The notes under the pieces: model-generated | What the model saw: the letters and a program-made list of their open reading frames with translations, nothing else | What the model was told of the DNA's origin: nothing | The model's database searches: none | Assembly: GCA_020341835.1 (NCBI GenBank) | Contig: CP070838.1 | Location: 960,996-998,271 of the forward strand | Reading direction: 5' to 3' | Source: Thiotrichales bacterium | GTDB taxonomy: Bacteria > Pseudomonadota > Gammaproteobacteria > SZUA-229 | Length of the DNA stretch: 37,276 nt | Translations under genes and position numbers: made by a program | Part shown: positions 4,079-6,812 of the stretch, piece after piece | Layout: every line of letters starts with the position of its first letter | How positions within the stretch are numbered: the first letter of the stretch is position 1

Positions 4079-4465
4079 ATGGCTGCAAGTTACCTGCTGA
4101 AAGTGGTTACCGAGTTCGCATCGGCCCACACACTGCGCGATTATCCAGGTGCCTGCAGCCGCATGCATGGCCATAACTGGAAACTTGAACTTGAGGCAGC
4201 CGCCACCGCGCTTGATGACGTCGGCATGGGGATCGATTTCAAGAAAATGAAAGCTGCTGCCAATGAAGTGGGTGAACGTCTGGATCATCGCTATTTGAAT
4301 GACCTGGAACCATTCACCGAGATAAATCCGACAGCGGAGAACATTGCTGCGTACATGTACCGGGAAATTGCAGCCAGATTAAACAGCGAGACAGTCCGGG
4401 TAAAGTCCGTGACCCTGTGGGAAACGGATCGCGCTTGTGTACGCTACAGCGAAGAGAATGAATGA
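4079..4465 (+). CDS. queD: 6-carboxytetrahydropterin synthase (QueD family)
   Basis: QueD converts 7,8-dihydroneopterin triphosphate into 6-carboxy-tetrahydropterin in the queuosine/preQ0 pathway. The 128-residue protein has zinc ligands from FASAHTL (His ~16) and MHGHNW (His ~31 and ~33), and the catalytic cysteine four residues ahead of HGH (CSRMHGH), the arrangement expected of QueD. LDHRYLND and the glutamate of [10 protein letters not shown] are also family positions. A PTPS-like role is possible but the CxxxHGH spacing and the adjacent folE2 favour QueD. Its stop lies just before the folE2 start. Confidence 0.92.
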
Positions 4466-4466
4466 C

Positions 4467-5282
4467 ATGACTGAGATAACCGAAGCCAAACCGACGAAAG
4501 CATCCGACATGGTGGATGTGCAGAGCAGTCATGACAAACGCGCCATCAGTATCGACAAGGTCGGCATCAAGGACATACGCCATCCGATCCAGGTAAAAGA
4601 CCGCTCTGGCCATATCCAGCACACGGTAGCCAACTTCAATATGTACGTGGATCTGCCGCACGAATTCAAGGGAACCCACATGTCCCGTTTCGTGGAAATT
4701 CTGAACAACCACGACTACGAGATCACGGTCGAGTCCTTCAAAATCATGCTCACCGAAATGACCAACCGCCTGGATGCGGAATGCGGTCATATCGAAATGA
4801 CGTTCAATTACTTCATCAACAAAGCCGCGCCTGCATCCGGCGTTGAAAGCCTGATGGATTACGAGGTCACCCTGATCGGCGAACGTCAGAATCACACCAA
4901 CACCATGTACGTCAAGGTGGTCGTGCCGGTGACGAGCCTGTGTCCGTGTTCGAAGAAAATCTCGGATCGTGGCGCCCATAATCAGCGCTCGCACGTAACC
5001 ATCACTGTAAAGACACGGAAATTTGTCTGGATCGAGGAAATTATCGATATTGTCGAGGCACAGGCCTCGTGCGAACTCTATGGCCTGCTGAAGCGTCCGG
5101 ACGAGAAAGTGGTCACCGAACGCGCCTACGACAACCCGAAATTTGTTGAAGACATCGTGCGCGATATCGCGGCACAACTGAACAAGGATGATCGCATCCT
5201 TTCCTATACGGTTGAGTCGGAAAACTTCGAATCCATTCACAATCATTCCGCTTACGCGTTGATCGAGAAGCATAAGGATTAG
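4467..5282 (+). CDS. folE2: GTP cyclohydrolase FolE2 (type IB)
   Basis: FolE2 converts GTP to 7,8-dihydroneopterin triphosphate, which is QueD's substrate and also feeds folate. This is the COG1469 enzyme rather than the zinc-dependent FolE1. The family signature [16 protein letters not shown] is present with the active-site cysteine, plus GAHNQRSHV and the C-terminal [16 protein letters not shown]. The ATG at 4467 is preferred because GAAGAG lies ~10 bases upstream; an ATG at 4458 (8-base overlap with queD) and a GTG at 4437 are alternatives. FolE2 is often used when zinc is scarce, but no obvious Zur box was found upstream of queD. Confidence 0.95.
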
Positions 5283-5306
5283 CGGGGGTCCTACACTCTT
5301 GCAGGA

Positions 5307-5320
5307 GCGGCTTTAGCCGC
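5307..5320. repeat. REP-like hairpin GCGGCTTTAGCCGC
   Basis: A six-pair stem GCGGCT/AGCCGC with a TT loop lies 24 bases after the folE2 stop and is followed by ...AACTTTTTTCG. The same core, (C)GCGGCTTTAGCCGC(G), recurs at 22091-22106 and in altered form at 26469-26501 and 29109-29130. The position and T-run suggest it could serve as the folE2 transcript end. Confidence 0.65.
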
Positions 5321-5353
5321 GAATCAACTTTTTTCGTTTTATATCCGCGTTTT

Positions 5354-5600
5354 ATTTCGCCTTAAGGCGAGTTACGTTACAAATCACGTCCCTGTGATTT
5401 GCCCTTCAGGTCTGCGTTCGCAGCACAAATTCATTCCCGATGAATTTGTCATTGCTCGCGCAAAGAAAGCAATCAAAGAAACACACCCCCCGGCGCTCGT
5501 GCTTCGCATTCCCTCAGCCATCTTCGCTGCCAACGGGTCGTCCTGAGTCGCCATCCGGGCTCCACAGGACTCGATTGGCCATCCCTGGCCAATCGACCCT
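5354..5600 (+). repeat. Hairpin-rich repeat element, left copy
   Basis: The first part (5371-5468) matches the reverse complement of 5935-6032 with 5 mismatches in 98 bases; similarity continues inward at a lower level to ~5600. Hairpins in order are TCGCCTTAAGGCGA (5357-5370), AAATCAC/GTGATTT with loop GTCCCT (5381-5400), ACAAATTCAT/ATGAATTTGT with loop TCCCG (5425-5449), and an 11-pair stem TCGATTGGCCA/TGGCCAATCGA with loop TCCC (5571-5596). Sequence of the CAAAGAAA...ACCAAAAGAAA kind recurs in many proteobacterial genomes; its function is not established. Confidence 0.75.
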
Positions 5601-5703
5601 ACCAGCGAAGCTGTCTTCGGCGAGCTTAAGGGGGACCTAAACTCAATAACTTCCGTTTGGCTGGTAAAGAAGCGGAAACCCTAACTGACAAAAAGACGCC
5701 GGG

Positions 5704-5721
5704 TTCCTGCTTCGACAGGAA
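5704..5721. repeat. Short hairpin TTCCTG-CTTCGA-CAGGAA between the two large repeats
   Basis: A six-pair hairpin sits in a context (GGGTTCCTGCTTCGACAGG, then AATGACG) that resembles the widespread GTCATTCCnnnnnnnnGGAAT dispersed repeats of proteobacteria, such as the dRS3 type in Neisseria. It is unlike the TCCC-loop hairpins on either side. Assignment to a named family is tentative. Confidence 0.45.
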
Positions 5722-5800
5722 TGACGATCGAAAGGGATATCTTTGAGCTTGGGTTTTTTTTGGGGCCCCTTGAAGTTTGCCGAGGTATTCGCCTTTGCTA

Positions 5801-6051
5801 GGGCAAATCCGACAGGGACGTCGGATTTAGTCTTGTGGAGCCCGGACGGCGACTCAAGACGGCCCGTTGGCAAAGGTGAATGCCGAGGGGACCCGAAGGG
5901 CAAACTGATCGGGGTGCCGTTTCTTTTGGTTACTTTTCTTTGGGCAAGCAAAGACAAATTCATCGGGAATGAATTTGTGCTGCGAACGCAGACCCGAAGG
6001 GCAAATCACAGGGACGTGATTTGTAATGTAACTCGCCCGAAAGGGCGAAAC
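5801..6051 (-). repeat. Hairpin-rich repeat element, right (inverted) copy
   Basis: This is the inverted partner of the left copy. Hairpins are AAATCCGAC/GTCGGATTT with loop AGGGAC (5805-5828), ACAAATTCAT/ATGAATTTGT with loop CGGGA (5954-5978), AAATCAC/GTGATTT with loop AGGGAC (6003-6022), and TCGCCC-GAAA-GGGCGA (6033-6048). On the minus strand all but the last have a loop containing TCCC. The first and last stems differ from the left copy in both arms at once, so pairing is kept. Confidence 0.75.
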
Positions 6052-6115
6052 TTATCTATAGGTTAACAAAAGGATATGTCCGCAGACGTGGGTCCCTGTT
6101 CAATACCACCACGAG

Positions 6116-6703
6116 TTACTTTTTCTCAGCTTCCTCTACAACGCTAACTTTCTCGATCAGGATGGTTTCCTGCGGCACATCCTTCTGGAAGCGCCCGCCC
6201 GCCCCGGTGGGTACCTTGGCGATACGGTCCATCACATCCATTCCGTCGACGATGGTACCAAATACGCAGTAGCCCCAGCCGCTCGTCGATTTGCTGGTGT
6301 GGTCGAGGAAGTTGTTGTCCTTGGTATTGATGAAAAACTGGTTGGTGGCGGAATGCGGATCACCGGTACGCGCCATCGCGATTGTGCCGCGCTTGTTTTT
6401 CAGGCCATTGTCGGCTTCATTCATGACGGGTGCGGAGGTGTCGACTTTTTTGAATTCCGGTGTGAAGCCGCCGCCCTGGTTCATGAAATTCGGTATGACG
6501 CGATGAAAGATGGTGCCGTCATATTTTCCTTCGTTGACGTAGCGCAGAAAGTTTTCGACCGTTTTCGGCGCCTTGTCGGGATAGAGCTCGATAATCACTT
6601 TACCTTTGCTGGTTTCCATGCTCACTTTGGGGTTGGCGGCGAAGGTGTTGCTGCTGATGCCAAGGAAAACCGCTATCAGGCATGTCGAAATCAATTTGTA
6701 CAT
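6116..6703 (-). CDS. ppiA: Periplasmic cyclophilin-type peptidyl-prolyl cis-trans isomerase
   Basis: It catalyses proline isomerisation during folding of exported proteins. The ATG at 6701-6703 was chosen over an upstream in-frame start because GTGAGG lies ~6 bases before it and because it begins a clear signal peptide (MYKLISTCLIAVFLGISS, cleavage after NTFA). The mature part is one cyclophilin domain with FHRVIPNFMNQGG (catalytic arginine), TNQFFIN, and GYCVFGTIVDGMDVMD, the arrangement of E. coli PpiA/PpiB. The product is 195 residues. Export points to PpiA rather than the cytoplasmic PpiB. It runs toward the repeat island. Confidence 0.9.
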   Translation of the reverse strand: MYKLISTCLIAVFLGISSNTFAANPKVSMETSKGKVIIELYPDKAPKTVENFLRYVNEGKYDGTIFHRVIPNFMNQGGGFTPEFKKVDTSAPVMNEADNGLKNKRGTIAMARTGDPHSATNQFFINTKDNNFLDHTSKSTSGWGYCVFGTIVDGMDVMDRIAKVPTGAGGRFQKDVPQETILIEKVSVVEEAEKK

Positions 6704-6812
6704 AATGGCCTCACTCGTGAAATCTGTGCGCAAATCTACTTGATATTGATAACAGGAGCAAGCGACGAGTCAACCAGGCGCTTGCCCGTCGAGGTGGAAT
6801 GCATGCAGAGCG

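Follow-up and report, generated by a model that had tools for sequence, protein, structure and literature searches.

How can hairpins with unrelated stems come to carry the same loop? The question is raised by a near-palindrome of ~700 bp at positions 5355–6050 of the window, the 37,276-nucleotide stretch of a Thiotrichales bacterium genome analyzed here, in which two inverted arms present one constant loop on stems that change. The element lies between folE2 (4437–5282, plus strand; PF02649) on its left and a ppiB-like cyclophilin gene (6116–6733, minus strand; PF00160) on its right, which converge on it and both enter it from the TCC side. An earlier note had read the loop as a recognition site shown on a hairpin and not as a terminator.

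Architecture of the palindrome

The arms consist of an outer inverted-repeat pair (5366–5491 and 5912–6037; 126 nt, 87% identity) and an inner pair (5502–5641 and 5759–5898; 140 nt, 70% identity). For the outer ~98 nt the earlier note had counted five differences; about five substitutions are indeed present, but there is one 2-nt indel besides. The features are as follows.

5304–5322, plus strand: REP-type palindrome GGAGCGGCTTTAGCCGCGA, beyond the left terminus of the window copy
5355–5375, plus strand: left terminal hairpin (inverted end) TTTCGCCTTAAGGCGAGTTAC
5380–5401, minus strand: outer GGA hairpin of the left arm, loop AGGGAC on the minus strand
5425–5449, minus strand: outer hairpin of the left arm, loop CGGGA on the minus strand
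5533–5601, minus strand: TwoAYGGAY (RF01731) core of the left arm, 46 bits against a gathering threshold of 43
5540–5570, minus strand: second core hairpin of the left arm, loop CGGAT, tandem G-A internal loop
5571–5596, minus strand: first core hairpin of the left arm, loop AGGGAT, with CANGGANG at 5580–5587
5642–5758, no strand: centre between the arms, 117 bp without a plausible gene; in some relatives cargo genes sit here
5758–5922, plus strand: TwoAYGGAY (RF01731) match of the right arm, 52 bits against a gathering threshold of 43
5805–5828, plus strand: first core hairpin of the right arm, loop AGGGAC, with CANGGANG at 5813–5820
5830–5860, plus strand: second core hairpin of the right arm, loop CGGAC, tandem G-A internal loop and a T-T mismatch
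5929–5954, plus strand: hairpin module GTTACTTTTCTTTG-GGCAAG-CAAAGA, common to most copies
5954–5978, plus strand: outer hairpin of the right arm, loop CGGGA
6002–6023, plus strand: outer GGA hairpin of the right arm, loop AGGGAC, with CANGGANG at 6009–6016
6028–6050, plus strand: right terminal hairpin (inverted end) GTAACTCGCCCGAAAGGGCGAAA

The centre also contains a further short hairpin repeat, GGTTCCTGCTTCGACAGGAATGACG (5695–5730), a similar form of which occurs in other copies. Two ORFs of 106 and 107 aa (5643–5963, minus strand, and 5743–6066, plus strand) cross the element and are probably spurious.

All four hairpins that the earlier note had quoted are present in the window: CAAATCAC-GTCCCT-GTGATTTG (5380–5401, second copy at 6002–6023), ACAAATTCAT-TCCCG-ATGAATTTGT (5425–5449, second copy at 5954–5978), TCGATTGGCCA-TCCC-TGGCCAATCGA (5571–5596), and AAATCCGAC-AGGGAC-GTCGGATTT (5805–5828), the last of which has TCCC on the minus strand. 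The TCCC loops had been placed on one strand, which is correct only when the two arms are read each in its own orientation. On the opposite strand GTCCCT, TCCCG, and ATCCCT become AGGGAC, CGGGA, and AGGGAT, so that TCCC is the complement of ANGGAN loops, and the strand originally read is likely to be the opposite of the functional one. The GGA hairpins at 5830–5860 (plus strand) and 5540–5570 (minus strand) were additional to those quoted.

The loop is kept while stems are exchanged

Multiple observations support a constant loop. First, the pattern recurs at about 15 loci of the same genome, and random loops, which would have told against a recognition site, were not seen in these copies. Second, when 6-nt loops on perfect 7-bp stems were counted in loci from this and related genomes, GGA ranked first among 16 loop-centre triplets (29 distinct hairpins; CCA was next with 12). 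Taken together, the recurrence of the pattern and the rank of GGA indicate that the constant loop is not due to chance. Third, among 50 distinct near-perfect NNGGAN hairpins from own and related loci, loop position 1 was A in 49 and the closing pair was C-G in 49, with variation at position 2 (G, T, A, or C) and position 6 (C, T, or A); copies share descent, and these counts are hence not counts of independent events. Stems that carry ANGGAN loops include TCGATTGGCC, AAATCGGGC, AAATCCGAC, AAATTCGCC, CAAAATCAC, CAACCGGCC, and GCAGGCC, many of them unrelated in sequence and well paired, and divergent relatives with other stems also keep GGA loops.

Many loci were gathered by RF01731 searches, which expect GGA. 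Relatives' loci were also found by BLAST with one arm, many through the flank alone and with no use of the loop, and here the GGA loops were still present (6-nt loops: AGGGAA, 6; ATGGAC, 5; ATGGAA, 1; AAGGAC, 1). A loop-free scan of contigs with the stem AAATCGGGC returned mostly terminator-like hairpins with unrelated loops, and four Lachnospiraceae loci with NGGAY loops. The Lachnospiraceae metagenome-assembled genome met in this way has 13 RF01731 copies and one CsrA. In TwoAYGGAY copies of this genome (L128, L152, L159, L181, G075), the AAATCGGGC stem is followed by AGCC, as in the gammaproteobacterial ones, a match that may reflect common origin or coincidence.

Each arm matches TwoAYGGAY RNA

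Read outward (the right arm on the plus strand, the left arm on the minus strand), each isolated arm is predicted to fold into four hairpins with open GGA loops (folding z-scores, −7.5 and −5.0 for the two arms). Both arms score above the gathering threshold of the TwoAYGGAY covariance model and, like that family, have a core of two adjacent GGA hairpins. In most cores hairpin 2 has a conserved tandem G-A internal loop (GA...GA) with covarying pairs on either side, which in one clade is swapped for paired bases; such a loop in one stem has been described for TwoAYGGAY (PMC4333381). Where the family consensus has AYGGAY, most of the present loops are AGGGAC/AGGGAT and CGGAY, although literal AYGGAY loops (ATGGAC, ATGGAT, ACGGAT) occur in other copies and in relatives. 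The arms differ further in standing as inverted pairs inside a palindromic repeat and, in the window copy, in having extra outer GGA hairpins.

In 38 distinct arms, 96.6% of the cells of the core structure TAGGG[hairpin 1]A[hairpin 2]GRCCCG were paired, and 13 of its 23 pairs had changed on both sides. None of 500 shuffles matched this covariation, the score being 0.42 versus 0.155 in shuffles and 0.02–0.10 in slid controls. Template switching at palindromes could partly yield perfect pairing but would not conserve a loop. If the GGA strand is the RNA, exceptions to pairing should be G-T rather than A-C; on that strand non-standard stem pairs were G-T 13 times and A-C 3 times (p about 0.01) under a restricted criterion picked after a laxer scan had given 21:13 (p 0.11, not significant), an excess that lends weak support to the GGA strand as RNA. 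We regard it as well supported that the arms are of the TwoAYGGAY RNA type and that their carrier is a palindromic repeat dispersed in the genome.

CsrA/RsmA is the likely binder

What might read such a loop? CsrA/RsmE proteins recognize an ANGGAN hexaloop, contacting the A and the GGA, with AC/GU pairing beside the loop (PMC7652899). An ANGGAN hexaloop closed by C-G is found in the first core hairpin and the outer AGGGAC hairpin of each arm; the CGGAY loop of the second core hairpin and the CGGGA loop fit ANGGAN inexactly. Judged by sequence, the fixed loop with its C-G closing pair is the published CsrA/RsmA recognition element, and CsrA/RsmA, which the earlier note did not name, is likely to bind it. 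The proposal of a recognition site on a hairpin, as opposed to a terminator, thereby gains support from sequence comparison: stems vary, the loop is fixed except at the two N positions of ANGGAN, the closing C-G pair is constant, the arms match Rfam TwoAYGGAY, and a T-tract terminator is lacking. Our results also agree with a 2014 study in which motif matching led to the computational proposal that TwoAYGGAY binds CsrA (PMC4333381), and they widen the loop from AYGGAY to ANGGAN.

As the best explanation, and in our judgment a fairly probable one, we propose that the arms, read outward, are RNA platforms for CsrA and that the repeat carrying them is mobile. The window feature is a single copy of this dispersed palindromic repeat. 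Read outward from the centre, each of its inverted arms would encode a TwoAYGGAY-type RNA with four GGA-loop hairpins; an arm so transcribed would most likely serve as a binding platform for CsrA/RsmA. One CsrA dimer can bridge two sites spaced by ≥10 to ≤63 nt (PMC7652899), and GGA spacings in the right arm are 25 and 43 nt, one partner of each pair being a non-canonical GGA loop. Pairs of loops at these distances could thus be bridged by one dimer, with the C-G-closed ANGGAN loops as the presumptive strong sites, and the arm would either titrate CsrA or act as a mark in the 3′ region of its host transcript.

Several results count against CsrA. First, a transcript of both arms is predicted to form a single long hairpin in which arm pairs with arm. 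Second, the window stems, at 8–11 bp, exceed those of most hairpins from CsrA SELEX, and a very stable structure could be a disadvantage (PMC7652899). Third, the second core loop is CGGAY and not ANGGAN in most cores of the genus. Fourth, a consensus scan of 5200–6200 found no promoter. The same scan found no terminator beyond chance, and the element thus lacks the recognizable promoter and terminator of its own that a CsrB/RsmZ-type sRNA gene would have. It resembles the CsrB/C and RsmX/Y/Z sRNAs in having several GGA loops of ANGGAN consensus paired at bridging distance, but differs in being a dispersed multi-copy repeat, known here from sequence, with mirrored arms, long stems, and no recognized promoter.

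Finally, csrA was not found in this genome (82% complete), and within the family, as far as its incomplete genomes show, presence of the repeat does not follow presence of csrA; both points again weigh against CsrA. The gene order in one congener is alaS-lysC-csrA-tRNA-Ser-tRNA-Arg, and in this genome (G000) a gap of 100 N (C1, about 407490–407590) follows 60 bp after alaS, where lysC-csrA is expected. lysC is likewise missing here, as it is from four genomes without csrA, and in both G003 and G017 the contig ends shortly after alaS. Because lysC is co-missing in the four genomes and the sequence breaks after alaS in G000 and G003, we do not take the absence of csrA as a refutation, although the gene may truly be absent from this genome. 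CsrA is present in 41 of the 58 genomes compared (relatives plus this one), three of six congeners being among the 41, and was found in many relatives with element copies.

A dispersed, REP-bounded repeat

The genome (2.8 Mb, scaffolded) has 17 RF01731 matches, and these together with BLAST copies define the roughly 15 loci, several of them inverted pairs; this number is a lower bound, as many copies touch runs of N. The copies terminate in inverted hairpins TTTCGCC..GGCGAGTTAC. Most ends have a REP about 46–77 bp beyond the terminal hairpin, always in the same, inverted orientation; in the window copy the right REP is missing. In five congeners folE2 has no element after it in the sequence available, and the positions of copies are therefore species-specific, although a chimeric join in the scaffolded genome may be the source of the folE2–element adjacency. 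At L054–L057 part of the arm is replaced by another hairpin repeat, GTAGGGTGGATTAGGCG...GGTGCAATACGCTTCGCTATTGCACC, and these loci are mosaics of repeat modules. A minimal copy (L050, 1045–1116) consists of two terminal hairpins joined only by GTTACTTTTCTTTG-CTTGCC-CAAAGAAAAGTAAC, possibly a deletion remnant. No match to the element was found in a phage collection, and matches in a plasmid collection were 42–50 nt only. Neighbour-gene orientation across loci, taken from the longest ORF, was too noisy for use.

These properties invite a different answer, in which the element is a purely selfish palindromic repeat (MITE/REPIN-like) whose hairpins are presented to a transposase as single-stranded DNA, the loop being a DNA recognition feature. 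Like REP/REPIN/BIME and MITE sequences, the copies are dispersed palindromes with inverted ends, REP sequences outside both ends, and species-specific positions; segments have been exchanged as in a mosaic, and the genome has three Y1 (IS200-like, RAYT-type) transposase genes. None of the three is flanked by the REP or ends of the element, however, so that inverted REP pairs are found at most ends in this genome without a linked cognate, REP-flanked RAYT, and the element is much larger than those repeats and contains a structured RNA core. A DNA feature also fits poorly with a loop that is the consensus of an RNA-binding protein and varies only at its N positions, with exceptions of G-T over A-C that favour one RNA strand, and with a Lachnospiraceae genome that obeys the same loop rule without the gammaproteobacterial ends. 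We consider this explanation unlikely.

Cargo genes in relatives

In some relatives the arms flank genes. Tae4 and Tai4 lie between direct element copies at L119 (876–5122), and Tae4 with a lipoprotein lies between inverted arms at L086 (716–2847); arms flank a DNA glycosylase (3-methyladenine glycosylase) at L089, a Fic protein at L098, and three uncharacterised small membrane proteins at L298. At these loci an arm is found on the 3′ side of the cargo, its GGA strand being the sense strand, as geometry dictates where the arms are inverted.

That small gene cassettes use the elements as sites of recombination or mobilisation (in the manner of attC sites or of composite mobile units), with hairpins and loops serving cassette exchange, is suggested by these five loci but seems to us improbable. 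The window copy has no plausible gene between its arms, the centres of the other own-genome pairs read are short, no linked integrase was found, and the same arrangement would arise if repeats underwent homologous recombination with each other. Integron attC sites resemble the elements in being structured, with variable stems, beside small cargo genes and partly in direct tandem, but the resemblance goes no further: in the element it is loops, not extrahelical bases, that are conserved.

Bidirectional terminators or mRNA 3′-end stabilisers would suit stable hairpins between the convergent folE2 and ppiB genes, but this is very improbable, as hairpins with T-tracts are no more frequent than chance, termination does not need a constant ANGGAN loop, and the bare AAATCGGGC stem of unrelated genomes, mostly terminator-like, carries unrelated loops. 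An intrinsic terminator was rejected: the one weak site with a G+C-rich hairpin and T-run is fewer than in shuffles, and the loops are non-random.

Implications for TwoAYGGAY RNAs and their carriers

Since 2010 the TwoAYGGAY family of RNAs has been an orphan; that it binds CsrA had been suggested, but only computationally. What appears new here is the carrier and the combination, namely a palindromic repeat, dispersed and bounded by REP sequences, that flanks cargo in relatives, the RNA itself being already known. A literature search on the repeat sequence returned nothing relevant, and none of the papers listed by searches on CsrA-binding dispersed repeats dealt with that subject.

The clade amounts to a natural mutagenesis of TwoAYGGAY, with dozens of copies in which stems have been exchanged and the loop varies only where CsrA tolerates it. 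A mobile palindromic repeat may, we speculate with considerable doubt, have captured CsrA-binding RNA arms, the scattered copies, some with effector-immunity cargo, acting as a distributed CsrA sponge or placing carried genes under CsrA control. If the copies are transcribed, a dispersed repeat would govern how much of a global regulator is free, and type VI effector-immunity pairs and other cargo would bring their own CsrA sites with them.
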